A stretch of 64,000 nucleotides of DNA, taken from Microbacterium sp. (lineage in GTDB: Bacteria > Actinomycetota > Actinomycetes > Actinomycetales > Microbacteriaceae). Position numbers and translations under genes: made by a program. Location: NCBI GenBank assembly GCA_017306415.1, contig JAFKIL010000007.1:1-64000 (forward strand), read 5' to 3'. Below the pieces are notes generated by a model that saw only the letters and a list, made by a program, of their open reading frames with translations, did no database searches and was not told where the DNA came from. Every line of letters begins with the position of its first letter. The stretch's first letter is position 1. Shown here piece after piece: positions 5,468 through 38,357 of this stretch.

Positions 5468-6127
5468 ATGTCCGTCGATGTCGTGCTGCCTTGCCTGAAC
5501 GAGGCCGGCGCCCTGCCCGCCGTGCTGCGCGGCCTCCCACCCGGGGTCCGGGCGATCGTCGTCGACAACGGCTCGACCGACGGCTCTGCGGAGATCGCCG
5601 CCGCGCACGGCGCCCTCGTGGTGACCGAGTCGCGCCGAGGCTTCGGCGCCGCCGCGCACCGCGGGCTGCTCGCCGCGACCGCGGATGTCGTCGCCTTCTG
5701 CGACGCCGACGGCTCGTTCGATCTCGGCGAGCTGCCCCGCGTGTACGCGCCCGTGGCAGACGGACGGGCAGACCTCGTCCTCGGCCGGCGACGCCCGCAG
5801 TCGTGGGGGTCCTGGCCGCTGCACGCCCGGCTGGCCAACGCGGCGCTCGCCTGGCGCCTGCGTCGCCGCACCGGCGTCGCACTGCACGATCTCGGGCCGA
5901 TGCGCGCCGGCCGGCGCGAGCAGCTCCTCGCGCTCGGAATGACCGACCGGCGCAGCGGGTATCCGCTCGAGATGGTCGTTCGCGGTGCGCGCGCGGGCTT
6001 TCGCATCGCCGAGACCGATGTCACCTACCGTCCCCGCGTGGGGCGCTCGAAGGTCACGGGGACGGTGCGCGGAACGGCCCGCGCGATCGTCGACATGGCG
6101 CGCGTGCTGGCGGAGGTGCGGGCGTGA
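5468..6127 (+). CDS. Family 2 glycosyltransferase
   Basis: A 219-residue GT-A-fold transferase of the dolichyl-phosphate-mannose-synthase type, which moves a sugar from a nucleotide donor to a lipid-phosphate or similar acceptor. Landmarks are VVLPCLNEAGALP at the start, VVDNGSTDGS at 31-40, and the metal-binding CDADGS with D79 and D81. It has no membrane segments, so it is the short soluble form. It is the first gene of a three-gene operon with overlapping starts (GTGA, then ATGA) and lies divergent to the two-component system. The substrate is not known. Confidence 0.88.
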   Translation: MSVDVVLPCLNEAGALPAVLRGLPPGVRAIVVDNGSTDGSAEIAAAHGALVVTESRRGFGAAAHRGLLAATADVVAFCDADGSFDLGELPRVYAPVADGRADLVLGRRRPQSWGSWPLHARLANAALAWRLRRRTGVALHDLGPMRAGRREQLLALGMTDRRSGYPLEMVVRGARAGFRIAETDVTYRPRVGRSKVTGTVRGTARAIVDMARVLAEVRA

Positions 6128-6780
6128 CGGCGGTGCTCGTGATGGCCAAGGAGTGCGTCCCCGGCCGGGTCAAGACCCGGCTGACCCCGCCCTGGACCCC
6201 CGCGGAGGCGGCCGCGATCGCGGCGGCGAGCCTCCGCGACACGCTCGCGTTCGTCGGCCGGCTGCCCGTCGACCGCCGCATCCTCGTGTTCGACGGCACT
6301 CCGCCGCCGGGCATCGACGGGTTCGAGGTGGCCGCGCAGTCGTCCGGCGGTCTGGACGGGCGGATCGCAACAGCCCTCGATGGATGCCGCGAACCGGCGC
6401 TGCTGCTCGGGATGGACACGCCGCAGCTGCGACCGGATGACGTCGCCGCGCCCCTCGCGGCGTGGCGCTCGGGTCGGGCCGGCGCCGACGCATGGATCGG
6501 GCCCGCTGCGGACGGGGGGTTCTGGGCGCTCGCGCTCACGCATCCGTCCGGCGATCTGGTCCGCGGCGTCCCCATGTCCCGCGCAGACACGGGGGTCCGT
6601 CAGCGCGCACGATTGGTCGACGCCGGGATGGTCGTGGAGGATCTCCCGACGCGCACCGACCTGGATGACGCGGCGAGTCTCGCCGAGGTGCTGATCGCGT
6701 GCCCGCCGACGAGCGCGCTGCGCCGGCTGCTGCAGCCCGCGCCGGCGCACCGCGACGCGGAGGGAGCGGCCGGCCGATGA
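6124..6780 (+). CDS. DUF2064 / TIGR04282-type glycosyltransferase
   Basis: A 218-residue protein of the DUF2064 family, a GT-A-like nucleotidyl/glycosyl transferase related to CofC and MobA. Landmarks are MAKECVPGRVKTRL at the start, LLGMDTPQLRPDDV near residue 95 and IGPAADGGFWALAL near 122. The GTG start overlaps the GT2 stop by four bases, so the two are translationally coupled. GT2 and DUF2064 genes side by side are a recurring arrangement in Actinobacteria. The acceptor is unknown. The C-terminal 30 residues are Ala/Arg-rich and look unstructured. Confidence 0.85.
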   Translation: MTAVLVMAKECVPGRVKTRLTPPWTPAEAAAIAAASLRDTLAFVGRLPVDRRILVFDGTPPPGIDGFEVAAQSSGGLDGRIATALDGCREPALLLGMDTPQLRPDDVAAPLAAWRSGRAGADAWIGPAADGGFWALALTHPSGDLVRGVPMSRADTGVRQRARLVDAGMVVEDLPTRTDLDDAASLAEVLIACPPTSALRRLLQPAPAHRDAEGAAGR

Positions 6781-7523
6781 CGGGACTGATCCTCGGCCCG
6801 CGCGCCGTGTCGGCTCCGGTTCCGGCTGCGACGCCCGAGCCCGCAGCGCGGGTCGAGGAGGAGCGCACGGCCGACGCGTTCGGCGCCGGCGCCGCGGAGC
6901 CCTACGAGCGTGCGCTGCGCGGAGCGTCGACCCGGCTCGTGCTGCGGGATGCCGGTCGGCCGCGGCGTCGCGCACATCTCGACGTGGCGCGGTATCTCAC
7001 CGCTCCGACCGCGCGCGAGCGCCTGCTCGTGCTCGAGGGCGACGGTCCGGTGCTGGACGTCGGGTGCGGCCCGGGCCGCATGGTGCAGGCGGCGCTCCTC
7101 GCCGGCCGGCCGGCGCTCGGCATCGATCTGTCCGAGACATCCATCGCCCTCGCCCGCGCACGACGCCTGCCCGTCGCCCGCCTGTCGGTCTTCGAACCCG
7201 TGCCCGATGAGGGCGAGTGGGGGACGGTGCTGCTCATGGACGGCAACATCGGCATCGGCGGCGACCCGGCCCGACTGCTCGTCCGGTGCGCGGAGATCGT
7301 CCGTCCCGGCGGTCACGTGGTCATCGAGACGCACCGCCGCGCGCGGCGCGATCGCCGGTTCGCCGCCGAGCTCGTCGGCGACGATCTCATCGCGAGTCTG
7401 CCGTTCCCCTGGGCGGAGGTCGGCGCGACCGGGCTGCGTCGCCACGCCTCGGGCGCCGGGCTCGTGCCCGTGACGCGGCGGCGGCTCGGTCGGCGCCGCG
7501 TCGAGATCTACCGCCGCGGCTGA
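6777..7523 (+). CDS. Class I SAM-dependent methyltransferase
   Basis: A 248-residue cytosolic methyltransferase. Motif I, PVLDVGCGPGRMV, is at about 91-103, followed by an acidic loop (GIDLSETSI) and a motif IV-like LLMDGNIGIGGDP. The N-terminal 80 residues are poorly conserved-looking. It ends the GT2 operon with an ATGA overlap and runs 16 bases into the convergent membrane-protein gene. Its place suggests that it methylates the product or an intermediate of the two glycosyltransferases, but nothing in the sequence identifies the substrate. Confidence 0.85.
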   Translation: MTGLILGPRAVSAPVPAATPEPAARVEEERTADAFGAGAAEPYERALRGASTRLVLRDAGRPRRRAHLDVARYLTAPTARERLLVLEGDGPVLDVGCGPGRMVQAALLAGRPALGIDLSETSIALARARRLPVARLSVFEPVPDEGEWGTVLLMDGNIGIGGDPARLLVRCAEIVRPGGHVVIETHRRARRDRRFAAELVGDDLIASLPFPWAEVGATGLRRHASGAGLVPVTRRRLGRRRVEIYRRG

Positions 7524-25488: not shown

Positions 25489-26715
25489 TCAGCCGCGCAC
25501 CCGCACGGATGCCGCGCGGCTCCGGACCCGGATGGCCGTGGTCAGGGCATCGACCCCCGCTTCGCAGTCGGCTTCGTCGGCGTGCTCCGCGGGCGAATGC
25601 GTGACACCGCTGCGATTGCGCACGAGGATCATCGCGGCGGGGATGCCGGCGCTCGCGAAGACCCCGGCGTCATGGCCGGCGCCCGCGGGGAGGACAGGGA
25701 CGTCGCCGAGCGCGGCGGCGAGGCCGGCCGTGAGGGCGGGGTCGAACGTCGTGCCGGCGGTCCACGCCTCCTGGACGGGGTCGAACCCGCTCATCCGCCG
25801 GACGTCGCGCAGGAGCCGCCGGATGCGCGCCTCGTCGCCGGCGCGCGCGTCGATCCACAGGCGCGCGGTCGCGGCGATGGTGCTCGGCGATCCCGGCTCG
25901 ATCCGCAGATCGCCGACGGTCGCCATCGCGCCGTGCGCGACGGCCGCGCGCCGGACGGCGAGGACGACGTTCGCGAGGCCCGTGACGGGGTCCTTGCGCC
26001 CCTGCATCGCCGATGTTCCGCCGTGGTCCTGGCGTCCGTCGATGTCCACTCGCCACTGCCCGTGCGGCCAGATCCGCTCGGCGACGCCGATGGCGGCACC
26101 CGCCGCGGCGAGCCCCTCGTGCGCGCCGTCGCGGGTCGGGAGCCGGCCCTGCTCGATGTGGAGCTCGATGACCTCGCCGATGCGGGCGAGCCGTGCGGGG
26201 TCGCGCCCCATCCGTCCGGGATCCAGCCCCGCCCCCGTGACCGCGTCGGCCATCGCCGTGCCCCCCTCGTCGCGGAGCGCGAGCGCGACCTCGGCGGGCA
26301 GAGCGCCGGTCATGAGCCGCGATCCGATCTGCTCCACGCCGAACCGCGCGCCCTCCGAGTCGGCGAAGACGGCCACGGCGACCGGACGGGACGGCTCGTA
26401 GCCGTCCCGTCGAAGCTGGGCGATCGCGGCGAACGCCGACGCGATCCCGAGCGGACCGTCGAAGGCGCCCCCCGCGAGGACGCTGTCGAGGTGCGACCCC
26501 ACGACCAGCGCGGAGGTACCGGTGTCGGCTCCCCACCACGCCCAGAGGTTGCCGTTGCGGTCGGTCTCCACTTCCAGGTCGAGGGCGTCCGCGCACTGGA
26601 CGAACCAATGCCGGCAGTCCAGGTCCGCCCCGGTCCAGGCGCGCCGGTCGTAGCCGCCGGACGCGAGGCGTCCGATCCTCGACAGCTCGCCGAGCAGACC
26701 CATGACGATCGACAT
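25489..26715 (-). CDS. M20-family amidohydrolase (allantoate/N-carbamoyl amino acid hydrolase-like)
   Basis: A 408-residue metal-dependent amidohydrolase, the last gene of the large operon. Metal ligands appear as H75 in GSHLDS, D86 in GGAFDGPLG, E121 in FADSEGARF, His in ELHIEQG and His in THSPAEHAD; AGHDAG is also kept. The usual Glu-Glu pair of this family is Ser-Glu here (S120), so the expected general base is missing or replaced. In actinobacterial histidine-use clusters a protein of this family stands with hutH and hutF, which suggests that it releases an N-formyl or N-formimidoyl group; that is inference. The ATG at 26715 follows GGGGG; an ATG at 26775 lies inside the ammonia-lyase gene. 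Confidence 0.82.
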   Translation of the reverse strand: MSIVMGLLGELSRIGRLASGGYDRRAWTGADLDCRHWFVQCADALDLEVETDRNGNLWAWWGADTGTSALVVGSHLDSVLAGGAFDGPLGIASAFAAIAQLRRDGYEPSRPVAVAVFADSEGARFGVEQIGSRLMTGALPAEVALALRDEGGTAMADAVTGAGLDPGRMGRDPARLARIGEVIELHIEQGRLPTRDGAHEGLAAAGAAIGVAERIWPHGQWRVDIDGRQDHGGTSAMQGRKDPVTGLANVVLAVRRAAVAHGAMATVGDLRIEPGSPSTIAATARLWIDARAGDEARIRRLLRDVRRMSGFDPVQEAWTAGTTFDPALTAGLAAALGDVPVLPAGAGHDAGVFASAGIPAAMILVRNRSGVTHSPAEHADEADCEAGVDALTTAIRVRSRAASVRVRG

Positions 26716-26740
26716 CAGGCCCCCGTCCGCGGCATCCGCG

Positions 26741-28336
26741 TCATACGAGCACGCCGCCCGCGCCGCGCGCCGCATCCAGCAGCGTGCCGTCGACGACCAT
26801 GCCGTGCGCCGCGGAGATCTCGGGCGCGAGATACCGATCCTCGCCCGGCGCCGCGACCGCCGTGCGCAGCTGCGCGACGACGGCGGAGCTCACCGGCCCC
26901 GGCCGCAGAGGCGCGCGCATGTCGAGGGCGCGGGCGGCGGTCAGCAGCTCGATCGCCAGCACGCGCGAGAGCCCGTCGACCGCACGGCGGAGCTTGCGCG
27001 CCGCCGACCATCCCATCGAGACGTGGTCCTCCTGCATGGCGCTCGAAGGGATGGAGTCGACGGATGCCGGTACCCCGAGCCTCTTGAGCTCGCTGACGAT
27101 CGCCGCCTGCGTGTACTGCGCGATCATGTGTCCCGAGTCGACTCCCGGGTCGTCGGCGAGGAAGGCGTTGAGCCCGTGATTGCGCGCGACGTCGAGGAAG
27201 CGGTCGGTCCGTCGCTCGCTCATGCTCGCGAGATCGGCGGAGACGATCGCGAGGAAGTCGAGCACGTACGCGATCGGTGCGCCGTGGAAGTTGCCGTTCG
27301 ACTCGACCCTGCCGTCGATGGTCACGGCGGGGTTGTCGACAGCGGCGGAGAGCTCGCGCTCGGCGACCCGCGCCGCATGGTCGATCGTGTCGCGGACGCC
27401 GCCGTGCACCTGCGGGGCGCAGCGCAGCGAGTAGGCGTCCTGTACGCGGGCGAACCCGTCCGGTCGGGCGAGGAGCTCCGAGCCGTCGAGGACCGCGCGG
27501 ATGTTCGCGGCCGAGTCGCGCTGACCCGGATGCGGTCGCAGCTCCTGGAGGTCGGCGGCGAACACGCTGTCGACTCCCCGCAGTCCCTCTACGCTCATCG
27601 CGGCGGCCAGGTCGGCCGTCGTGACGAGGCGCCGCAGGTCGGTGAGGGCGAGCACCAGCATCCCGAGCATGCCATCCGTCCCGTTGATCAGCGAGAGCCC
27701 CTCCTTCTCCACGAGCTCGAGGGGCGCGATGCCCTCCGCCCGGAGGGCGACGCTGGCCGGAACCACGGCACCCGCGACATCGCGCACGTCCCCCTCGCCC
27801 ATGAGGGCGAGGGCGCAGTGCGCGAGGGGAGCGAGGTCACCGGAGCAGCCGAGGCTCCCGTACTCGCGCACGATCGGCGTGATCCCGGCGTTCAGCACGG
27901 CGGCGTACGTCTGGGCGACCACGGGGCGCACCCCGGTGCGCCCCGTGGCGAGGGTGGAGAGCCGCAGCAGCATCAGAGCGCGCACGACCTCCCGCTCGAC
28001 CTCGGGACCGGACCCGGCGGCGTGACTGCGCACGAGCGAACGCTGCAGCTGGGTGCGTCGCTCGAACGGGATCTGCTTCGATGCGAGCGCACCGAATCCT
28101 GTCGAGACGCCGTAGTGCGGCCGCGTGTCCGAGGCGAGCGCGGCGATCACTCCCGCGCTGCGCGCCATCTCATCGAGGGCGTCCGGGGTGAGCTCGATGG
28201 GCGCGTCGCGGCGCGCGACGCGCACCACCTCCGCGAACGAGAGGCCGCCGATACCGACCCTGACCGGGTCGGTGACGGCCGGATCGGCCTCCGTCCGGGA
28301 CGTGGCGGAAGGGGCTGCGGCGAAGGTGGATGTCAC
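26741..28336 (-). CDS. hutH: Histidine ammonia-lyase-type MIO enzyme
   Basis: A 531-residue aromatic amino acid lyase, which removes ammonia from histidine to give urocanate. The self-made MIO cofactor would form from C164-S165-G166 in GSLGCSGDLAPLAH; most family members have Ala-Ser-Gly. HYGVSTGFG, NGTDGML, NFHGAP and SVDSIPSSAMQEDHVSMG are present, and the QEDH block with Glu is the histidine-type, not the phenylalanine-type, signature. Segment VSELK replaces the common ASENK. The GTG at 28336 has AGAGGA upstream and gives a roughly 20-residue extra N-terminus. No urocanase or imidazolonepropionase gene is nearby, so the product may go elsewhere. Confidence 0.88.
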   Translation of the reverse strand: MTSTFAAAPSATSRTEADPAVTDPVRVGIGGLSFAEVVRVARRDAPIELTPDALDEMARSAGVIAALASDTRPHYGVSTGFGALASKQIPFERRTQLQRSLVRSHAAGSGPEVEREVVRALMLLRLSTLATGRTGVRPVVAQTYAAVLNAGITPIVREYGSLGCSGDLAPLAHCALALMGEGDVRDVAGAVVPASVALRAEGIAPLELVEKEGLSLINGTDGMLGMLVLALTDLRRLVTTADLAAAMSVEGLRGVDSVFAADLQELRPHPGQRDSAANIRAVLDGSELLARPDGFARVQDAYSLRCAPQVHGGVRDTIDHAARVAERELSAAVDNPAVTIDGRVESNGNFHGAPIAYVLDFLAIVSADLASMSERRTDRFLDVARNHGLNAFLADDPGVDSGHMIAQYTQAAIVSELKRLGVPASVDSIPSSAMQEDHVSMGWSAARKLRRAVDGLSRVLAIELLTAARALDMRAPLRPGPVSSAVVAQLRTAVAAPGEDRYLAPEISAAHGMVVDGTLLDAARGAGGVLV

Positions 28337-28429
28337 GGGGGTCCTCTGTGGAGTGGGGAAGGGACGAATGCGGTTCCCGACGGCGCCGGAGCATGTCACG
28401 GCGCCGCCGGGAAGGGGTGCTCGGCGGGG

Positions 28430-28855
28430 TCAGGCCGCGATCGCGAGCTCGACGAGCTGGCCCTGCTGGAGCCAGTTCTTCATGCCGACGAGAGCGAGTT
28501 CGAGCTCGCCCTCCTCGACCTCGCCGATGTAGCTGATCTTCAGAGGCTCGTCGGCCAGATCGTCGCCGTAGACCACGCAGAACTGCTGGCGCGGGTTGTA
28601 CCAGCACACCGAGCCGCGGGCGTGGCCCTTCTCCTTCCGACGGAGGGCGCCCACCTCCTCGGTCAGGTACACGTTCTCCCAGGGGGCGACGATGGGCATC
28701 GTCCAGAACACCATCTCGCCGACGATCTTGCCGTGCTGCAGGATGCTCTTCTGGGGCAGGTTCTCCTTGAGCGCCGCGACGATGCCGGGGACCAGTTCCT
28801 CGAAGACGCGGATCGTGCAGACCTTCTCGCCGTCGACGGACATGATGAGCTTCAT
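28430..28855 (-). CDS. Cyclophilin-like DUF3830-type protein, copy 1
   Basis: A 141-residue protein with the look of the small cyclophilin-like fold (DUF3830 type): TIRVFEELVPGIVAALKENLP, WTMPIVAPWENVYLTEE, then SVCWYNPRQQFCVVYGDD. From memory of the family, mikimopine/cucumopine synthases combine such an N-terminal domain with a C-terminal helical bundle. Here the helical-bundle partner is the gene just upstream. A paralogue lies at 29394-29825 with conserved ELVP/DMVP, QH, PMEN/PWEN, SPRQ/NPRQ and YIGEV positions. The ATG has GAGAGAGA upstream. The catalytic role is inference. Confidence 0.65.
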   Translation of the reverse strand: MKLIMSVDGEKVCTIRVFEELVPGIVAALKENLPQKSILQHGKIVGEMVFWTMPIVAPWENVYLTEEVGALRRKEKGHARGSVCWYNPRQQFCVVYGDDLADEPLKISYIGEVEEGELELALVGMKNWLQQGQLVELAIAA

Positions 28856-28884
28856 GGGGGTTCTCTCTCTCGTGTTGCGGATGC

Positions 28885-29361
28885 TCACGCGCTGACGCGC
28901 TTGAAGCCGTTGGTGACGCCCCAGGGGAAGACGGCGTCCACCCACATGTGCACCTTGTTGACGTAGCTGATGGCCGCACGGGTGACCTCGAGGAACTCCT
29001 CGACGGACGTCGCGGCGTTCGCCGCCTCGACGTAGCGCGCGACGAACCCGCCGGCGACCGGCATCCCGACGAAGTCGAAGAACGCCGCCTTGTAGCCGAC
29101 GATCTGGTCGACGAGCGCCTGCAGCGTGGCGAGGTCGAGCGTGCGGGTCTCGCTGGCCTCGATGATGCCCCAGAGCACCTCGTCGGACAGCGTGCGCGCC
29201 TCGGACTCGGCGAACATGAGAGTGGACAGGTACTGCCCGTGGGTGCCGGTGCGGCGGGGGATGATGCCCTTCCCCATGTCGACGATCTCCTGGGGGCATT
29301 CCAGCCAGATCTTCTCGCGCTCGGCGTTCAGCTCCGCGATGACGTCGGTGACGATGCTCAC
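28885..29361 (-). CDS. Helical-bundle protein, cucumopine-synthase C-terminal-domain-like, copy 1
   Basis: A 158-residue, almost fully helical soluble protein: MSIVTDVIAELNAEREKIWL, MGKGIIPRRTG, YLSTLMFAESEARTLSDEVLWG, FFDFVGMPVAGGFVARYVEAA and VHMWVDAVFPWG. It is a close paralogue of the gene at 29856-30344, and each copy is followed by a cyclophilin-like gene. Its size, helicity and pairing match what I recall of the helical-bundle domain that ends cucumopine and mikimopine synthases. If right, this operon holds a two-gene version of an enzyme normally made as one chain. No motif directly proves the activity. Confidence 0.6.
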   Translation of the reverse strand: MSIVTDVIAELNAEREKIWLECPQEIVDMGKGIIPRRTGTHGQYLSTLMFAESEARTLSDEVLWGIIEASETRTLDLATLQALVDQIVGYKAAFFDFVGMPVAGGFVARYVEAANAATSVEEFLEVTRAAISYVNKVHMWVDAVFPWGVTNGFKRVSA

Positions 29362-29393
29362 GACGGTTCCTTTCTCGTGGTGGGTGGGGGGTC

Positions 29394-29825
29394 TCAGGAC
29401 TCGTCGCGGATGCGGAGCTCGACGAACTTGTCCTGCTTGCGCCAGGTCTCCTCGCCGACGAGGGCGAGCTCGGTGAGGCCGTCGATGACCTCGCCGATGT
29501 AGCCGTTGGCGAGGGGCTCGACGGCCAGGTCGTCGCTGTAGGTGACGCCGAACACCTGGCGCGGGCTGTAGAAGACGACCGTGCCGGCGACGGTGCCCTT
29601 ATCCTTGCGGCGCAGCTCCGCCAGATCCTCGGTCATGATGAGGTTCTCCATCGGGATGACGAAGGGGAGCACGGCGAACAGCTGGTCGCCGACGAGGGTG
29701 GCGTGCTGCAGCTTCGTGCGGATCGGCAGCCGGCGGCGGAACTCCTCGGTGGTGTTCGGAACCATGTCCTCGAAGATGCGGATGCCGCACACGTACTTCT
29801 CGTCGACGACGAAATCGATGATCAT
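29394..29825 (-). CDS. Cyclophilin-like DUF3830-type protein, copy 2
   Basis: A 143-residue paralogue of the protein at 28430-28855, similar along its whole length: GIRIFEDMVPNTTEEFRRRLP, LPFVIPMENLIMTEDL, TVVFYSPRQVFGVTYSDD and GYIGEVIDG. Trp residues in copy 1 (FWTMPIVAPW, VCWYNP) become FAVLPFVIPM and VVFYSP here, so the pockets differ. This suggests that the two pairs act on different substrates or stereoisomers, or form mixed complexes. It is preceded by the helical-bundle gene copy 2 and followed by pair 1. Confidence 0.65.
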   Translation of the reverse strand: MIIDFVVDEKYVCGIRIFEDMVPNTTEEFRRRLPIRTKLQHATLVGDQLFAVLPFVIPMENLIMTEDLAELRRKDKGTVAGTVVFYSPRQVFGVTYSDDLAVEPLANGYIGEVIDGLTELALVGEETWRKQDKFVELRIRDES

Positions 29826-29855
29826 CTCTGGGTTGTCCTTCGTTCGGTTCGGGTC

Positions 29856-30344
29856 TCAGGCGGTCTGCTTGGCGTCGGCGCGGGGGAAGGCGCTCGCGAT
29901 GCCCCACGGGAACACGCTCTGGATCCACATGTGGACGCGATTGGTGTACGACAGGGCGGCCCCGGTGACGGCGGCGAACTCCTCGAGCGTCTCGGCGGCG
30001 CGGGCGCCCTCGGCGTAGCGGTGGATCCACCGGCACGTCAGCGGCAGTCCCACGAAGTCGAAGAAGTCGGCCTTGTAATCGACGATCTGCGTCACGAGCT
30101 TCTTCAAGGTGCCGAGGTCCGTCTCAGGATCGTGGGAGACCTCGATGAAGCCCCACAGGATCTCGTCGGCGAGGGTGCGGGCCTCGCCCTCCGCGTACAG
30201 GAGGGAGGTGAAATACTGCTTCTTCGGCCCGGTCAGGCGCGGGATGATGCCGTTGCCGAGATCGCGGACGTCCTCGGGGAGCACGAGCCAGATGCGCTCG
30301 CGTTCGGCATCCAGCTCGGCGATGACCTCGTCTACCAGAGACAT
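29856..30344 (-). CDS. Helical-bundle protein, cucumopine-synthase C-terminal-domain-like, copy 2
   Basis: A 162-residue helical paralogue of the gene at 28885-29361. Shared positions include the start MSLVDEVIAELDAERERIWL, GNGIIPRLTG, YFTSLLYAEGEARTLADEILWG, FFDFVGLPL, SYTNRVHMWIQSVFPWG and the hydrophobic pattern between them. The ATG has AAAGGA upstream. With the next gene it forms pair 2 of the tandem duplication. The order is always helical gene first, cyclophilin-like gene second, the reverse of the domain order I recall for the fused plant and Agrobacterium enzymes. Confidence 0.6.
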   Translation of the reverse strand: MSLVDEVIAELDAERERIWLVLPEDVRDLGNGIIPRLTGPKKQYFTSLLYAEGEARTLADEILWGFIEVSHDPETDLGTLKKLVTQIVDYKADFFDFVGLPLTCRWIHRYAEGARAAETLEEFAAVTGAALSYTNRVHMWIQSVFPWGIASAFPRADAKQTA

Positions 30345-30385: not shown

Positions 30386-31162
30386 CTAGACGAGCCGCCG
30401 GCCACCGTCGACGGGGATGGTGGCGCCGGTGAGTGATCGGGGGGCATCGGCGAGGAAGAGGAGCACGTCGATCACGTCCCGGAGGGCGGTCTCCCGGATG
30501 GGGATGCCCTTGACCTCGCTGAGCTCGCCGTGCACGGGTGTCTCGCCACGGGCCGCGCGCAGGTCGTCGTTCACGCCGTCGTCGGAGCGGTAGAACTGCG
30601 TCGGGGCGACGCTGTTGCACGCGACGATGGGGCTGAGCGCCACCGCGAGCTGCTCCATCAGACGTCCGAGCGCCGACTTGCCGACGACGTGCGGCACGAG
30701 CTCGGGCCATGACTCGGACAGCGAGTTGCCGAGGATCGCCAGGATGCGACCATCGCCCTGCGCCATCATCACGGCGGCGACCGCCTGCGAGAGGAACAGC
30801 GGCCCACGCAGGTTCACCCCGAGGGATGCGTCGACGTCTGCGACCTCGAGTTCGAGGAAGGGCCGGGGGCGGAAGCTGCTGGCGTTGTGGAGGAGCAGGT
30901 CGATGCGACCGGCCTCGCCGACGATCGCGTCGACCATGGCCCGGGATGCCGTGGGGTCGGCGATGTCCGCCTCCACCGGGCGCACCCGCCCGGACCCGGG
31001 CACGCCGTCGGCGTGATCGGCGAGCTCGCGCGCCTGCGCCGACTGTCCGAGGTGGTTGACGAACACCGTGGCGCCGGCGGCGGCGAAGGCGAGCGCGATC
31101 TGTGCGCCGGCCCGCTCCGCGGCGCCCGTGATGAGGACGATCCTGCCGTCGAGGGGCGTCAT
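30386..31162 (-). CDS. Short-chain dehydrogenase/reductase lacking the catalytic Tyr (copy 1)
   Basis: A 258-residue Rossmann-fold protein of the classical SDR family. The nucleotide-binding [13 protein letters not shown] is at 11-23, LLHNASS at 90-96 and [11 protein letters not shown] near 117, and NSVAPTQF near 184 fits the cofactor loop. The active-site Tyr-x3-Lys is H158-x3-K162 (PHVVGKSAL), with possible Ser at 147 or 149. The change to His suggests altered chemistry or a structural or binding role. It overlaps the next SDR by four bases, and the two proteins are distant paralogues. Confidence 0.85.
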
Positions 31163-31908
31163 ACGCGCTCACCTCCGGCGAGGCTGATGGTCTGGCCCGA
31201 CACGGCCGTGGCATCCGGCCCGAGGAGCCAGCGCACGGTGCGCGCGATGTCCTGCGGCGTGGGCAGCGGGAGGACGCGGCGGAGCGCGCCGATCTCATCC
31301 AGCGCGGCGAACGTCGGGTCCGACTCGGCGAGATCGCCGTCGCCCGTGGCGACCCGACCGGGGCTCACGACGTTGGCCCGCACGCCGTGCGCACCCTCCT
31401 CCAGCGCGAGCACGTGGGTGAGCGCGGTCGCGGCGGCCTTCCCCGCGCCGAAGAGCCCGAGCCCGGGATGCAGGCGGGTCGAGAGCGCGCCGCCGATGAA
31501 GACCACGGCGCCGCGGGCGCGACGGAGCGCAGGCAGCGCCGCGCGGCAGAGGTGGACGTGACCGCGCGCGCCCGCGAACGCGGCATCCAGGGCGTCGTCG
31601 TCGGCATCCGCCACTGTCGCGCTCGGCACCGCCGGCCACGCGGCGTTCACCAGGTCGTCCACGTCGCCCCATTCGGCGGCCAGGAGTGCGAGGGCGGCAT
31701 CCACCTCCGCGGCGTCCACGAGATCGGCCTCCACCACCGCGTGCGTCGCGCCTGCCGGCGCCGGGAGCGACGCCGCGAGCCGTTCGGCGGCGTCGCGGCG
31801 GCTGCGGCAGTGCACGGCGACCGGATGCCCGTGAGCGGCGAGCTCGTGCGCGATGACCGTGCCGATCGCGCCGGTCGCCCCGGCGACGAGCACGCGCCGC
31901 CCGGTCAA
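31159..31908 (-). CDS. Short-chain dehydrogenase/reductase lacking the catalytic Tyr (copy 2)
   Basis: A 249-residue SDR. It shows [13 protein letters not shown] at 8-20, LVNAAWP near 86, and [15 protein letters not shown] in the cofactor and substrate loop. The catalytic Tyr-x3-Lys is F153-x3-K157 ([10 protein letters not shown]). The Ser position is probably S143. Tandem SDRs that have both lost the Tyr are unusual and may form a heteromer in which neither subunit does standard hydride transfer. The gene overlaps both neighbours by four bases (ATPase upstream, SDR copy 1 downstream). Confidence 0.83.
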
Positions 31909-32693
31909 TGCAGCCCCCGCGCGAGGAAGCTGCGGATGCGGGGGGAGTGGTCGGGGTCGAGGACGACCGTCGGGGCGCCGGCGGCCTCGACGACCCCATC
32001 GGCCATGAAGACGACCTGGTCGGACACCTCGCGCGCGAAGCCGATCTCGTGCGTGACGACGATCATCGTCGTGCGTGCTTCGTCGGCGAGCCGGCGCATG
32101 ACGTCCAGCACCTCGCCCACCAGCTCGGGGTCGAGCGCGCTCGTGGGCTCGTCGAAGAGGATCAGCTCCGGCTTCATGGCGAGCGCGCGCGCGATCGCCA
32201 CGCGCTGCTGCTGGCCCCCGGAGAGCTGGCCCGGGTACTGGTCGGCCTTCTCCGCGAGCCCCACCAGCGCGAGGAGCTCACGCGCCTCGGTCTCGGTCTC
32301 CCGCCGCGGGCGCCGCTGCACGACCTGCGGCCCTTCGACGAGGTTCGCGAGCACGGTCATGTGCGGGAAGAGGTTGAAGTTCTGGAACACCATCCCGATG
32401 CGCTGCCGCTGGCGGCACAGGTCGCGGTCGGACAGCTCGTGGTATCTGCCGCCGCGGTTCTCGTAGCCGATCAGCTGATCGCCGACGCGGATGGTCCCGC
32501 CGTCGATCGGGATGAGTCGGTTGATGCAGCGCAGCAGGGTGGACTTGCCCGATCCGCTCGGCCCGAGGATGGACGTCACGGTGTTCGCGGGAACGGTGAA
32601 GCTGACACCCTTGAGGACCTCGTGGTGGTGGTAGGACTTGCGGACGTCCTCGACCGTGACCGACGTGCTCGTGGTGGCGATGATGGCGGACAT
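31905..32693 (-). CDS. Polar amino acid ABC transporter ATPase
   Basis: A 262-residue ATP-binding subunit. It has Walker [11 protein letters not shown] loop [13 protein letters not shown], signature LSGGQQQR, Walker [14 protein letters not shown] and the switch VTHE, the full set of the GlnQ/HisP type. It works with the permease at 32695 and the solute-binding lipoprotein at 33684. The gene is one base after the permease stop and overlaps SDR copy 2. The length and motifs are normal. Confidence 0.95.
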
Positions 32694-32694
32694 C

Positions 32695-33612
32695 TCAGGC
32701 CTTCCTTCCCGTGCGGCGGAGCATGTGCAGCATCCCGTTGCGCCCGCTGAGGCCCGCCTCGGCGGTGACGCCGCGGCCGAAATGGTCCTCGATCTTCGAC
32801 TGGCCGAAGCTCAGGATCGACGTGAGGACGAGGTACCAGACGGACGCGGTCAGCAGCAGCGGGATGACCTCGAACGTCCGGGAGTAGATGCTCTGCGCGC
32901 TGTACATCAGGTCGGAGAGGGCGATCACCGAGACGAGCGACGTGGACTTCAGCATCCCGATCGTCTCGTTGCCCGTGGGCGGGATGATGACGCGCATCGC
33001 CTGGGGCAGCACGATGCGGCGGAAGGACTGCGCGCGCGTCATGCCGATCGAGGTGGCGGCCTCGCGCTGACCGGAGGACACCGAGAGGATGCCGGCGCGG
33101 ATGATCTCGGCCAGGTACGCGCCCTCGTTGAGGCCGAGGCCGAGGATGGCGGCCAGGAGCGGAGTGATGAGGTCGTTGGTGCGCGCCGTGAACCACGGAT
33201 CTGCGAAGGGGATCCCGATCGAGATGTCGGGGAAGAGGTAGCCGAGGTTGTACCAGAACACGAGCTGGACGAGCACGGGGGTGCCGCGGAAGAACCAGAT
33301 GTAGAAGCCGGACGACCACCGCAGCGTGCGGCTCGCCGACACGCGCATCACGGCGATGACGACGCCGATCACGAGCCCCACGACCATCGCGATGAACGTG
33401 AGGAAGATCGTCATCCACAGACCCGACAGGATCCGGGGGTCGAAGAGGTAGTGGAAGACCACGTTCCACTGGAATCGCGGGTTGAGCACGACGACGGCGG
33501 CGAGGGCCAGCGCGGCGAGGAGTACGACGACGATGCCGACGATGCGCCACGGGTGCCGGCGCGGCACGAACTCTGCGACGGGGGACGTCGTGGTGCGCTC
33601 CGTGATGCTCAT
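32695..33612 (-). CDS. Polar amino acid ABC transporter permease
   Basis: A 305-residue membrane subunit of the HisM/GlnP type with a long N-terminal region. Membrane segments lie at about 24-43, 60-90, 105-125, 160-185 and 245-275. The coupling motif is present as GQREAATSIGMTRAQSFRRIVLPQA (EAA loop). It carries both functions of the permease pair as a single gene, so it probably works as a homodimer. The ATG at 33612 has AGAGG upstream. Confidence 0.93.
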   Translation of the reverse strand: MSITERTTTSPVAEFVPRRHPWRIVGIVVVLLAALALAAVVVLNPRFQWNVVFHYLFDPRILSGLWMTIFLTFIAMVVGLVIGVVIAVMRVSASRTLRWSSGFYIWFFRGTPVLVQLVFWYNLGYLFPDISIGIPFADPWFTARTNDLITPLLAAILGLGLNEGAYLAEIIRAGILSVSSGQREAATSIGMTRAQSFRRIVLPQAMRVIIPPTGNETIGMLKSTSLVSVIALSDLMYSAQSIYSRTFEVIPLLLTASVWYLVLTSILSFGQSKIEDHFGRGVTAEAGLSGRNGMLHMLRRTGRKA

Positions 33613-33683: not shown

Positions 33684-34583
33684 TCACTTGATGGGGCGGG
33701 TGGTGGCGAGGTTGATCCCCGGCTTGTCGAGGGCGAGCGACTCCAGGCCCCACTTCTCGAGGATCTTCGTGTACGTGCCGTCGGCGACGATGGCGTCGAG
33801 GCCCGCGAGGAGCGCCTTCTGCAGCTTCGTGTTGTCCTTGGCGACGGCCATGCCGAGGTACTTCTGCGGGAAGGAGTCGATCGACTCGTAGTTGATCTTG
33901 GTCGGCGCGGTCTTGTTGAGATACGCCGCCGACGACGTGCCCAGGATCATGAAGTCGACCCGACCCGATGTGAGTGCGTTGAAGGTGCCCGCGGCGTCCG
34001 GGTACTCCTGGATGGTGACGTCGGCCTTCCCGGCCGCCTTGCAGGCGGGGTTGAGGATCTGCTTGACCTTGTCGATCGTGTCGAAGCCCGTCTGGGCGCC
34101 CATGGTCTGGCCGCACAGCGACAGGTCGTCGCCCTTCTTGATGGGGCCCTTGTACGACTGGATGGTCACGACGTCGGTCTTGTCGTAGATGTAGTTGACG
34201 AACGTGACCTGCTGTTCGCGCTCTTCGCTGTCGCTCATGCAGCCCATGGCGAAGTCGTAGCGCCCGGACTGCACGCCCGGGATGAGGCTCGCGAACTGCG
34301 TGTTCTCGATCTTCAGGGTGGCGCCGAGCTTCTTGGTGATGGCATCCCAGAGGTCGACCTCGTAGCCGACCATCTTGTCGGAGCCCTCTTCGAAGTACTG
34401 GCAGGGCGGGTAGTTGGCGTCGGTCGCGACGGTGATCGTCTTGCCGTCGAAGGAGCTGGCGACAGCGGCGCCGGACGAGCTCGATCCGGGGGTCGAGGAG
34501 CCGCTCGCGCAGCCTGCGAGCGCGACGGCCGCGGTCAGGGCGAGGGCCGCGAGGGCGGCTGCTCGGGTGCGGGGGACGTGCAT
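33684..34583 (-). CDS. Amino acid-binding lipoprotein of the ABC transporter
   Basis: A 299-residue extracellular solute-binding protein. The signal peptide ends in a lipobox, ALAGCASG, so it is lipid-anchored. The mature part begins with a Ser-rich linker, then ITVATDANYPPCQYFEEGSDKMVGYEVDLWDAITKKLG in pieces typical of the glutamine/histidine-binding family, and GRYDFAMGCMSDSEER. Two lobes are evident, with Cys residues in PPCQY, AMGCMS, LSLCGQ and NPACKA. It is the first gene of the 11-gene operon and is preceded by the palindromic site at 34745. The ligand should be the compound the operon handles. Confidence 0.93.
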   Translation of the reverse strand: MHVPRTRAAALAALALTAAVALAGCASGSSTPGSSSSGAAVASSFDGKTITVATDANYPPCQYFEEGSDKMVGYEVDLWDAITKKLGATLKIENTQFASLIPGVQSGRYDFAMGCMSDSEEREQQVTFVNYIYDKTDVVTIQSYKGPIKKGDDLSLCGQTMGAQTGFDTIDKVKQILNPACKAAGKADVTIQEYPDAAGTFNALTSGRVDFMILGTSSAAYLNKTAPTKINYESIDSFPQKYLGMAVAKDNTKLQKALLAGLDAIVADGTYTKILEKWGLESLALDKPGINLATTRPIK

Positions 34584-34882: not shown

Positions 34883-35650
34883 ATGGCAGACATCCCGGCC
34901 GCGCGTCACGCGCTGCGCGTACTCAAGTTCGTCGCGAGTCAGAGCGGACCGGTGCGCGCCGCCACCGTCGTGCGCAGCCTCGACATTCCGCGGTCGACGA
35001 CGTATCAGCTGATCCGGGTGATGCAGGACGAGGGGTTCCTGGTCCACTTCCCCGAGGATCGCGCATACGGCCTCTCGCCGCTCGTGTCCGAGATCGGGTC
35101 CAACTACCTTCGTACGCAGAAGGTGAGCCGGCTCGCCGAGCCGCTCCTCGCCAAGCTGGTCAAACGGACCGCGCTGCCCGTCGTCGCACACCTGGGTGTG
35201 CTGCACAACGGCGACATCGAGTACGCGGTCAAGAATGCGGCGATGCGTGCGCCCTCACTGGTGACCGATGTCGGTGTGCATCTGCCGGCGCACCTCACGG
35301 CGACCGGGCGGGCCATCCTGTCGGTGCTGTCGCACGAGCAGGTCCGGGCGCTGTACCCGGATGTGGCGAGCCTCACCACGCGCAACGGACGGGGCCCGCG
35401 TACGCTGCGCGACCTCGACGACATCCTCGCCGAGACCCGCGCACGGGGGTATGCAGTCGAGACGGGAGAGATCACGCCCGACTGCGCGTCGGTCGCCGTC
35501 GCGGCGCTCGACCACAACGGCTACCCCGCCGCGGCCGTCGGGCTCACGTTCCGCAAGATGGCCGTGGACGTCGGCATCTGGCCACAGCTCGGCGCGGCGG
35601 CGCAGATCTCGGCCGGCGCGCTGTCGATGCGCCTGCGCGGCAAGATCTGA
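34883..35650 (+). CDS. IclR-family transcriptional regulator
   Basis: A 255-residue regulator. The N-terminal winged helix (about 8-65) reads ALRVLKFVASQSGPVRAATV, SLDIPRSTTYQLIRVMQDEGF. The effector domain shows GVHLPAHLTATGRAILS, RGYAVETGEITPDCASVAVA and GYPAAAVGLTF, all typical. It is divergent to the 11-gene operon and adjacent to the P450 operon, which runs towards it. IclR regulators usually bind a catabolic substrate, so it is the likely controller of both operons through the two identical palindromes. Confidence 0.93.
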   Translation: MADIPAARHALRVLKFVASQSGPVRAATVVRSLDIPRSTTYQLIRVMQDEGFLVHFPEDRAYGLSPLVSEIGSNYLRTQKVSRLAEPLLAKLVKRTALPVVAHLGVLHNGDIEYAVKNAAMRAPSLVTDVGVHLPAHLTATGRAILSVLSHEQVRALYPDVASLTTRNGRGPRTLRDLDDILAETRARGYAVETGEITPDCASVAVAALDHNGYPAAAVGLTFRKMAVDVGIWPQLGAAAQISAGALSMRLRGKI

Positions 35651-35671: not shown

Positions 35672-35980
35672 TCACGACGTGCGGCGGAGCGATCCGTCCA
35701 CCGGGGCGACGTCGATGATCTCGATGGGATCCTCGGCCGGCAACTCGAGCACGTCGCCCGTCGTCAGGTCGAACTCCGCGCCGTGGCAGTTGCACACCAG
35801 GACGCTGCCGTCGACGACCTCTCCGTTGGTGCTGAACGCGCAGGGCGCGTGCGAGCAGCGATCGGCGAACATGCACCATCCCCCCGCGTGGTGTGCGACG
35901 ACGAAGGCCTCGCCGTCCACGACGACGGGCACGAGTGCCCCGAGGGGGACGTCATCAGGGCTGAGTCCGAGATCCGTCAC
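35672..35980 (-). CDS. Rieske-type [2Fe-2S] ferredoxin
   Basis: A 102-residue soluble Rieske protein. The cluster ligands are Cys and His in RCSHAPC and Cys and His in VCNCHGAEFD; the rest (FDLTTGDVLELPAEDPI) matches the small Rieske ferredoxins of oxygenase systems. The GTG start overlaps the P450 stop as GTGA. It should carry electrons from the reductase gene to the P450; bacterial P450s more often use a 3Fe-4S or adrenodoxin-type ferredoxin, so a Rieske partner is notable. Confidence 0.88.
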   Translation of the reverse strand: MTDLGLSPDDVPLGALVPVVVDGEAFVVAHHAGGWCMFADRCSHAPCAFSTNGEVVDGSVLVCNCHGAEFDLTTGDVLELPAEDPIEIIDVAPVDGSLRRTS

Positions 35981-37179
35981 GGGGCGTCCCACACGATCGG
36001 CAGCGTCTTCGGTCCGCGCGCGACCCAGCCGCGCACCTCCGCGTCCTGCTCGGGGTCGAATCGCACGTTGGGCAGGAGGGAGAACACCTCTTCCAGGACC
36101 ACCTGGGCCAGATTCCGCGCCGTGAAATGGCCGATGCAGAAGTGCATGCCGTACCCGAACGAGGCGTGCGCCTGGGTCTCGCGGAACAGGTCGTACACGT
36201 CGGGATCGGTCCAGCGCGTGGCATCCCGGTTCGCAGATCCGATGACGAGCGCGACCGGGGTGTCCTTCGGGAAGTGGAGGCCGCCCAGGTCGACGTCCTC
36301 CGTCGTGCGCTTCTCCGTCGTCCCGAACGGGGAGAGCCAGCGCAGCCCCTCCTCGACGGCCTGGGCCGAGAAACCGGTGGGATCGCCGGCGAACGCCGCC
36401 GCCTGCTCCGGTCGTCCCAGCAGTCCGTACAGCGTGCTCGCCGAGGCGTGGGCCGGCTCTTGGAAGCCGCCCACGATGAGGACTCCGAGGTTGCCGATCA
36501 GCTCCTCGACGCTGCGGGGAGTGCCGTCCGGGCGCCCGTCGTACAGCATGTGCCAGATCGCACTCCGGCCGCCGCCGACCGAGGTCCACTCGCCCCGCGC
36601 GATGTTCTCCTCCAGCAGCTCGCGCAGCTCGTCCTTCACGCCCTCCACGTCGGCGCGGGTCGATTCGTCCCGGCCGAGGTCTGCGATCCAGCCCGCGTAG
36701 ACGCGCAGCCAGCGGTCCAGCGTGGCGTCGTCGACGCCCTCGAACCCGATGAGATCGCCGACCGCGCGCTGGCTGATGGGTTCCAGCAGACCGCCGACGG
36801 CGTCGATGCGGCCGAGCGGCGCGACCGCCGAGATGTACCGGCGGGCGGTGGCTCGCAGGAGGTCGTCGCGGTAGCCCATCACCGTGCGCGGGCGGAACGG
36901 CGGATTCACGCGGTTGCGAAGGGCCGTGTGCTCCGGTCCGTTCATCGCGAGCACGTTCGGCGCTCCGAACATGCGGGCCGAGAACACCGAGTCCGGGCTG
37001 AACACGGCGTCGTTGTTCCCGGCCTCGTCGCACAGATCCCACGTGGTGACCAGGACCTGATCCGAATGGGGCAGGTACGCGATGGGCTGGTTCTCCCGCA
37101 TCCATCTGTAGGTCGGGTAGGGGTCGTGCTCGAGCGCCTCCTCCGAGACGTCGAGGACGATGTCGGTCGCGTTGCGCAA
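35977..37179 (-). CDS. Cytochrome P450
   Basis: A 400-residue bacterial P450. The haem ligand is C348 in FGYGMHFCIGH, the ExxR pair is E277/R280 (EEGLRW) and SANRDATRW lies before the meander. The I-helix oxygen-activation motif reads GGFQEPAHA, so the usual acid-Thr pair is Glu241-Pro242. The conserved Thr is absent, which can go with unusual reactions. No ATG fits: the TTG at 37179 is preceded by GAAGGGA and gives the normal length. It overlaps the Rieske gene and follows the reductase gene by 14 bases. Confidence 0.9.
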   Translation of the reverse strand: MRNATDIVLDVSEEALEHDPYPTYRWMRENQPIAYLPHSDQVLVTTWDLCDEAGNNDAVFSPDSVFSARMFGAPNVLAMNGPEHTALRNRVNPPFRPRTVMGYRDDLLRATARRYISAVAPLGRIDAVGGLLEPISQRAVGDLIGFEGVDDATLDRWLRVYAGWIADLGRDESTRADVEGVKDELRELLEENIARGEWTSVGGGRSAIWHMLYDGRPDGTPRSVEELIGNLGVLIVGGFQEPAHASASTLYGLLGRPEQAAAFAGDPTGFSAQAVEEGLRWLSPFGTTEKRTTEDVDLGGLHFPKDTPVALVIGSANRDATRWTDPDVYDLFRETQAHASFGYGMHFCIGHFTARNLAQVVLEEVFSLLPNVRFDPEQDAEVRGWVARGPKTLPIVWDAP

Positions 37180-37193
37180 GAGAGTTCCCTTCG

Positions 37194-38357
37194 TCAGGCG
37201 TGCGCGGGTTCGGGGAGGATGGGGCCGAGACGGAGCTGCTTGCGAATCGCGGCGAACGGCCGTCCGCCGTTCACTGCCGCGGCACCGACGATCCGATCGT
37301 CGGCATCGAGGTACGCGACGAGCTCGCCGCGCTCGATCGGATGGCGCTGGGCGCGCAGACCCGGGCGGACGGCCCCGATCTTCTCGAAGCGCACGCCGTA
37401 CTGGTCGCTCCACACGTAGCCCGACGGCCGGAAGGGTGCGACGTCTTCGCCGAGCAGCGCCGGGACCAGGACGCGCGCCTGGTCGACGGCGTTCGTCCAG
37501 TGCTGGTGAGACCGCACCTCGCCACTGTCGACGTCGGTCCACGCCGAGACATCGCCCAGGGCGTAGACGCCGTCGATCCCGATGACCCTGCCATGCGCGT
37601 CGCAGCGGATCGGACCACCCGTTCCGGCGTGCGGGCCGATGCCCGCCTCGGGGACCGCTCCGACCGCCGCGACGACGAGATCCGCGGTCAGCTCGCTGCC
37701 GTCATCCAGGATGAGTCGGGCGGCGTCGCCGTCGGGTCGGGCGCCGACCACCGTGCGGCCGCTCACCACCTCGACGCCCCTCTGCCGGTGGAGGTCCGTC
37801 AGGGCGCGCGCGACATCGTCGCCGAGCGCGTGATGCGACAGCAGCGGGTGCGAGTGCACGACGGTGACGCGCTTCCCGTGCTCTCGGAGGGATGCCGCCA
37901 CCTCCGCGCCGACCAATCCTCCGCCGACGACCAGCACGGTCTCGCTGGTGCGCGCCCGCCGGTTGATCGCTGCCGCGTCGTCGGCGTCTCGAAGCATGAG
38001 GACCTCTGTCCCTGCCGCCCAGTCTGGCCGTCTTGCGGTCGCGCCGGTGGCGATGACCACGGTCGAGTACGCGATGTGCTCTCCCGACGTCAGCCGTGCG
38101 ACGCGCTGCGTGTAGTCGACGGTGGCAACGGCATCGCCCAGGATGAGCGTGAAGTCCGGATCGCCGACGATGAGCTCCCGCGTTCCCGCGACCGGGTCGA
38201 GGATCATCTGCTTCGAGAGGGGAGGCCGGTCGTACGGCGTCCTGTGCTCGCGGGAGACGACTGTCACCCGCATCTCCGGCGCGCGGCGGGCGAGCTGGTG
38301 CGCAACCTCGATGCCTGCGACCGAGGCGCCGACGATGAGCACGTCCGTTCGCTGCAT
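37194..38357 (-). CDS. FAD-dependent ferredoxin reductase
   Basis: A 387-residue NAD(P)H-dependent reductase of the putidaredoxin/rhodocoxin-reductase type. The FAD-binding VLIVGASVAGIEVA is at 6-19, the second Rossmann motif VLVVGGGLVGAEVA near 145, and GIDGVYALGDVSAW near 265 closes the FAD site. It feeds electrons to the Rieske ferredoxin and P450 encoded just downstream. It is the first gene of this operon and has the second 17-bp palindrome 76 bases upstream. Confidence 0.93.
   Translation of the reverse strand: MQRTDVLIVGASVAGIEVAHQLARRAPEMRVTVVSREHRTPYDRPPLSKQMILDPVAGTRELIVGDPDFTLILGDAVATVDYTQRVARLTSGEHIAYSTVVIATGATARRPDWAAGTEVLMLRDADDAAAINRRARTSETVLVVGGGLVGAEVAASLREHGKRVTVVHSHPLLSHHALGDDVARALTDLHRQRGVEVVSGRTVVGARPDGDAARLILDDGSELTADLVVAAVGAVPEAGIGPHAGTGGPIRCDAHGRVIGIDGVYALGDVSAWTDVDSGEVRSHQHWTNAVDQARVLVPALLGEDVAPFRPSGYVWSDQYGVRFEKIGAVRPGLRAQRHPIERGELVAYLDADDRIVGAAAVNGGRPFAAIRKQLRLGPILPEPAHA

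Follow-up and report, generated by a model that had tools for sequence, protein, structure and literature searches.

What do two tandem pairs of small genes do when they stand directly upstream of a histidine ammonia-lyase gene? The question arises from a 64,000-nucleotide stretch of Microbacterium sp. (GenBank assembly GCA_017306415.1, contig JAFKIL010000007.1, positions 1 to 64,000), referred to here as the window. Each pair consists of a gene for a helical protein (HEL) followed by a gene for a cyclophilin-like protein (CYC). The pairs probably encode two-subunit enzymes of the cucumopine synthase, KslB, and McbB family within a catabolic operon, in which import would be followed by reverse Pictet-Spengler cleavage and then by histidine ammonia-lyase (HutH). 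A preliminary description of this DNA had reported the alternating layout and the protein lengths, and both were confirmed. It had also placed HutH right after the pairs, which the family score bears out.

29856..30344, minus strand: HEL1 (P0001), helical subunit of the upstream pair, 162 amino acids (aa); Pfam Cucumopine_C, 150.7 bits (cut-off, 27)
29394..29825, minus strand: CYC1 (P0002), cyclophilin-like subunit of the upstream pair, 143 aa; DUF3830 E value of 5.4e-4, below the cut-off; H41 and E103 kept
28885..29361, minus strand: HEL2 (P0003), helical subunit of the downstream pair, 158 aa, GTG start; Cucumopine_C, 152.7 bits
28430..28855, minus strand: CYC2 (P0004), cyclophilin-like subunit of the downstream pair, 141 aa; H41 and E103 present
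26741..28336, minus strand: HutH, histidine ammonia-lyase; TIGR01225, 622.8 bits (cut-off, 539); CSG and QEDHVS motifs; one of two copies in the genome

Family, fold, and conserved residues

Both helical proteins belong to Cucumopine_C (PF18631) by the curated cut-off, with E values of 3.8e-44 (HEL1) and 9.4e-45 (HEL2). This is the cucumopine synthase C-terminal family against which the preliminary description had proposed to search them. It had named DUF3830 (PF12903) for the cyclophilin-like proteins. That part stood only as fold: the two proteins scored 20.4 and 19.5 bits, under the cut-off of 26, and the modeled CYC2 has the fold. Their Cyclophil_like2 match was also under the Pfam cut-off. 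No NCBIfam family matched any of the four proteins. A sequence search of the PDB with CYC2 gave no significant match. The same search with HEL2 retrieved McbB (3x27; 1.1e-16), the family member 9uwa (8.5e-7), and KslB (9ns6; 1.4e-5).

Structures were predicted for the single chains of pair 2 (HEL2 and CYC2). The two models cover complementary halves of KslB (about residues 1-148 and 180-317) and of McbB (157-306 and 2-141). The cyclophilin-like domain and the helical bundle domain of the cucumopine/mikimopine synthase, McbB, and KslB fold are thus both present. In those enzymes they share one polypeptide, and in the window they do not. A Foldseek search with the cyclophilin-like subunit returned 3kop first and also matched 1zx8.

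H41 and E103 align with McbB H44 and E97, which are invariant in nine fused enzymes. Both residues occur in 50/50 split cyclophilin rows; the alignments omit repeat readings of a genome (L011, L012, L013, and L066) and the truncated L045 cyclophilin. E103 therefore occupies the position of E97, which we take to be the catalytic glutamate of McbB. The proposed relationship to cucumopine and mikimopine synthases is supported by the Cucumopine_C matches and by the models. Each pair belongs to this family as a predicted two-subunit enzyme, whose subunits would associate in a complex.

Separate genes, duplicated as a unit

The helical and cyclophilin-like parts are separate genes, each with a stop, a gap, and its own start. 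Fifty-three split pairs with the helical gene first were compared, five of them from a genome read a second time. The gap between the two genes ranges from -4 to 59 bases, and the relative frames are evenly distributed (18, 16, and 19). The even spread rules out a single frameshifted gene.

The pairs had been described as paralogous. Their helical subunits are 56% identical, and their cyclophilin-like subunits are 47% identical. Orthologues of all four genes were found in three other assemblies (L016, L017, and L018) at 78-96% identity. The ratio dN/dS, a rough estimate by NG86, was 0.06-0.33 in 12/12 comparisons, which rules out a decayed paralogue. The double pair is present in the window and in L016, L017, L018, and L020. 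HEL1 tracks CYC1 and HEL2 tracks CYC2, with higher identity across L016 to L018 than between the pairs, so, judging from the sequences, the HEL/CYC pair is a unit that was duplicated before these genera split, with both copies retained. Across 48 pairs, the distance matrices of the two subunits have a correlation of 0.92, and permutations reached at most 0.32; common descent explains part of this correlation. CYC2 contains W51, W59, and W85, where CYC1 has A, M, and F. The Trp-rich pocket that had been noted in one copy only is accordingly that of the downstream cyclophilin-like subunit.

A widespread two-gene family

A scan of genome contigs from 84,980 species gave 41 loci. The two parts lie in separate, adjacent genes at 41/41, a count that is split partly by construction, as the scan patterns came from split helical proteins; several of the loci are near relatives. 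Of 398 genomes searched with PF18631, 7 matched and 5 of these had split genes; of 394 in a second search, 9 matched and 3 of these had split genes. Both searches included the window's own genome. The window genes belong to a two-gene family that is widespread, rather than being a fused enzyme that was split locally.

The helical gene precedes the cyclophilin-like gene at 40 of the 41 loci and follows it at L021. The reversed order also occurs outside these loci, in pRi1724, Sodalis, and Sinorhizobium. L021 carries a second, very divergent pair on the opposite strand directly after the first (L021:10675-11725).

Gene neighborhoods

The pairs lie within a string of genes transcribed from the minus strand in the order importer, short-chain dehydrogenase-like (SDR) genes, HEL1, CYC1, HEL2, CYC2, HutH, and M20. 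The remaining genes of the string and its putative regulator are as follows.

33684..34583, minus strand: solute-binding protein, SBP_bac_3
32695..33612, minus strand: ABC importer permease, polar amino acid type
31905..32693, minus strand: ABC importer ATPase, polar amino acid type
31159..31908, minus strand: SDRb; adjoins HEL1/CYC1 in relatives
30386..31162, minus strand: SDRa; adjoins HEL1/CYC1 in relatives
25489..26718, minus strand: M20 amidohydrolase; NF006770, 458.7 bits (cut-off, 372); start uncertain
34883..35650, plus strand: IclR-family regulator, divergent; IclR in the same position in L016 to L018

(a) Window genome. The string encodes HutH of the histidine utilization (hut) pathway. 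It does not encode HutU, HutI, or HutF. The only HutU and HutI of the genome above the cut-offs, and its HutF-like gene, are at C1:1044838-1050077 on another contig. They belong to a second hut operon (G000 C1:1044838-1051672) that contains HutH (C1:1050152-1051672), HutU, M20, HutF-like, and HutI genes with an IclR gene alongside. The window HutH is 79-84% identical to HutH of the pair operons of L016 to L018 versus 69% to the second copy in its own genome. Its start codon is uncertain, as an upstream start at 28399 is also open. It keeps the histidine ammonia-lyase motifs. At what we take to be the MIO-forming tripeptide, HutH of the window and its actinomycete relatives has CSG in place of ASG.

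(b) Closest relatives. The gene order in L016 to L018 is SBP3-permease-ATPase-SDRb-SDRa-HEL1-CYC1-HEL2-CYC2-HutH-HutU-M20-HutF-like-HutI. The HutF-like protein is 33-35% identical to an alphaproteobacterial HutF. The M20 amidohydrolase, encoded between HutU and HutF-like genes, may perhaps perform the N-formylglutamate step, given its position in hut operons. In L010 these hut genes come after one pair, which is of the second type. L020 has two blocks, one with the importer, the SDRs, and pair 1, and one in which the hut genes come after pair 2. HutH immediately follows pair 2, both in the window and in the four double-pair relatives. Both SDRs (at least 45% identity) were found at 4 of the 41 loci, which are those four relatives with a close double pair (L016 to L018 and L020). 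We take the Tyr of Tyr-x-x-x-Lys to be the catalytic tyrosine of short-chain dehydrogenases. At that position SDRa has His (H-x-x-x-K) in 5/5 genomes compared, and SDRb has Phe in 3/5 and Tyr in 2/5. SDRa and SDRb may be nonclassical.

(c) All split loci. Neighborhood genes were counted by tblastn of named proteins, with hut and importer thresholds chosen after the first neighborhood results were seen. Importer permease or binding-protein genes were found at 37/41 loci, with the polar amino acid type at 27 and the peptide type at 10. The loci without them are L019, L027, L031, and L045; two of these contigs (L027 and L045) are short, and L031 starts within an ABC ATPase gene. Genes for hut proteins were found at 14/41 loci, and HutH or HutU was found at 12/41. 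The preliminary description had drawn the histidine link from the adjacent HutH; it is stronger than was claimed, given these relatives and the HutH-to-HutI strings in the closest of them. The hut-associated pairs are scattered over several branches of a tree of 48 pairs. The alphaproteobacterial loci L036, L038, and L040 also contain the hut repressor HutC. In L014, a fused KslB-type enzyme is encoded between the hut genes and the importer.

(d) Fused McbB-type genes. In the same search, neither hut genes (0/6) nor importer permease or binding-protein genes (0/6) were found around these controls. A lone ABC ATPase matched in L095 and L098, and a weak P450 match was found in L095, L097, and L098.

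(e) Loci with another cluster. At 16/41 loci, from Enterobacterales, Pseudomonas, Martelella, and Methylobrevis, a different cluster replaces hut (L022 to L024, L027, L029, L030, L032 to L035, L037, L039, L041 to L043, and L055). It encodes a type III glutamine synthetase (GS-III) and an aldo-keto reductase (16/16 each), mostly a Rieske oxygenase (15/16), and other oxidoreductases; a luciferase-like protein is encoded at 13/16. We regard the cluster as catabolic. Judging by strain names, several of these strains may have come from wood, beetles, or plants. Neither hut genes nor the GS-III cluster was found at 11/41 loci.

(f) Adjoining oxygenase genes. Rieske ferredoxin, P450, and ferredoxin reductase genes lie next to the IclR gene at 35672-38357. 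They were rejected as part of the system. L016 to L018 gave one weak match, a reductase at 32% identity on the far edge of L016.

Opine plasmids and known enzymes

(a) pRi1724. This plasmid is called mikimopine type, and pRi2659 is called cucumopine type, in published work (PMC8554961 and PMC6733357). pRi1724 contains two family members, a fused gene beside rolB (L057:3611-4537, 308 aa) and a split pair (L057 5528-6495). The fused protein is presumably mikimopine synthase. It has the same two domains as the window pairs and, unlike them, is one polypeptide. The split pair is followed by genes for an amine importer, hydantoinases A and B, HutF, HutI, HutH, HutG, and HutU. It resembles the window in its domains, importer, and hut genes. 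It differs in its order (cyclophilin-like and then helical), in its sequence (23-30% identity between split pairs), and in its hydantoinases, none of which was noted in the window string. Sodalis praecaptivus likewise has a split pair with hutH, an importer, and hydantoinases.

Compared with the split pairs from the same plasmid, from Sinorhizobium medicae, and from Sodalis praecaptivus, the fused pRi1724 protein shows 52-54% identity in its cyclophilin part and 37-40% in its helical part. It is 23% identical to the fused pRi2659 protein. In a tree (36 of 64 rows displayed, chosen by hand), it clusters with the split pairs with a support of 99, although the program flags a long branch and an unsure placement. 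The window pairs adjoin the pRi1724/Sodalis clade with a support of 90 under a midpoint root, next to a weak branch of 74. From this grouping, the presumed T-DNA mikimopine synthase looks as if the two genes of a catabolic pair had been fused to form it.

(b) pRi2659. Two fused copies adjoin hutC, hutH, importers, HutF, HutI, HutG, and HutU. As in the window, family members stand beside hutH, other hut genes, and importers. The difference is that both copies are fused, one per domain order. The copies (L058:4591-5547 and 5929-6876) lie back to back, and their opposite orders indicate that domain order was swapped within the family.

(c) Other opine plasmids. In a paper on the succinamopine plasmid, an adjacent asparaginase is held to cope with freed asparagine, and hydantoinases may open lactam opines (PMC6733357). 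The asparaginase argument has the same logic as HutH beside the pairs. A catabolic role for the Agrobacterium genes may already have been proposed for the cucumopine catabolic plasmid pAtAg67 (Hooykaas 2022, as cited in other papers). In pTiAg57 (NZ_MZ773647.1, 70371-71862), hutH is in two adjoining pieces in different frames; related plasmids have intact copies.

(d) KslB and McbB. KslB (PDB 9ns6 and 9nst) is a bacterial Pictet-Spenglerase. It differs from the pairs in being a single polypeptide and is about 16-24% identical to them. Its PDB titles name products of L-Trp with 2-oxoglutarate or succinic semialdehyde. McbB (PDB 3x27) shares both domains and the invariant H44, Y92, G93, and E97. 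It differs in being fused, in the opposite domain order, and in its neighborhoods, as described above. By eye, the L060 sequence matches that of 3x27 throughout.

Proposed function and alternatives

The preliminary description had left the direction open between a Pictet-Spengler-type enzyme and its reverse. The gene context favors the reverse; a histidine destroyer beside a histidine-consuming synthase would make little sense. The ABC transporter would import an opine-like tetrahydro-imidazopyridine derived from histidine (cucumopine, mikimopine, or a relative). Glu103 would protonate the imidazole carbon, breakage of the C-C bond would give an imine, and water would free L-histidine and 2-oxoglutarate (or another oxo-acid). 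HutH and the hut pathway would consume the released histidine. Histidine release is most likely the task of pair 2, which lies ahead of the hut genes. Pair 1, which travels with the two SDR-like proteins, may act on a related stereoisomer or at a preceding step. One possible natural source of the compound is plants whose cucumopine-synthase-like genes are intact and expressed, Arachis among them (PMC11351324).

The pairs could instead be synthases that build an opine-like compound, an osmolyte, or a signal by condensing an oxo-acid with histidine or a different amine. McbB and KslB, the named relatives with solved structures, are synthases (for McbB, this is our assumption), and the aligned residues are the same in these enzymes. 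We nevertheless consider this unlikely, given the amino acid- or peptide-type importers and hut genes at the split loci and the placement of an additional HutH of the genome in the pair string. Quite unlikely in our judgment is a third reading, in which the same fold and retro-type chemistry act on a substrate that yields no free histidine or 2-oxoglutarate (spinacine-like, or tryptophan or amine derived), or in which an epimerization or ring opening occurs without C-C cleavage. It would fit the GS-III, Rieske oxygenase, and aldo-keto reductase clusters, as well as the two pairs with differing pockets and the two SDR-like proteins. The constant position of HutH behind pair 2 and the recurrence of hut genes in several branches of the pair tree argue against it. 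Last, the proteins could be a folding helper, a sensor, or a transporter accessory, given the likeness of the cyclophilin-like subunit to proteins of this kind that stand alone (3kop and 1zx8). They are paired halves of a known enzyme with an invariant catalytic glutamate, and a nonenzymatic role is very improbable.

Implications

The domains and the opine link were already known. Among the matches listed from open-licence literature, in which most subscription journals are missing, we found no account of a branch that has two subunits, is linked to importers and hut genes, and extends across actinomycetes and proteobacteria. No paper pairing a Pictet-Spenglerase with cucumopine synthase was found in that literature, nor was the word DUF3830.

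We conclude that catabolic retro-Pictet-Spengler cleavage is the probable role of the window pairs. A broader proposal is more tentative, and we give it a little under an even chance. It holds that widespread two-subunit retro-Pictet-Spenglerases (C-C lyases) let soil, plant, and wood bacteria eat histidine-derived opines or alkaloids, and that the T-DNA mikimopine synthase is such a catabolic pair, fused into one plant-expressible polypeptide and run backwards. Pictet-Spenglerases are known as alkaloid makers. If true, a two-subunit version in histidine-degrading operons would be an enzyme class that unmakes alkaloids. It would point to a function for DUF3830-like proteins and would explain the consumption of cucumopine-type opines outside Agrobacterium. 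It would also offer a route from a catabolic pair to a T-DNA opine synthase.
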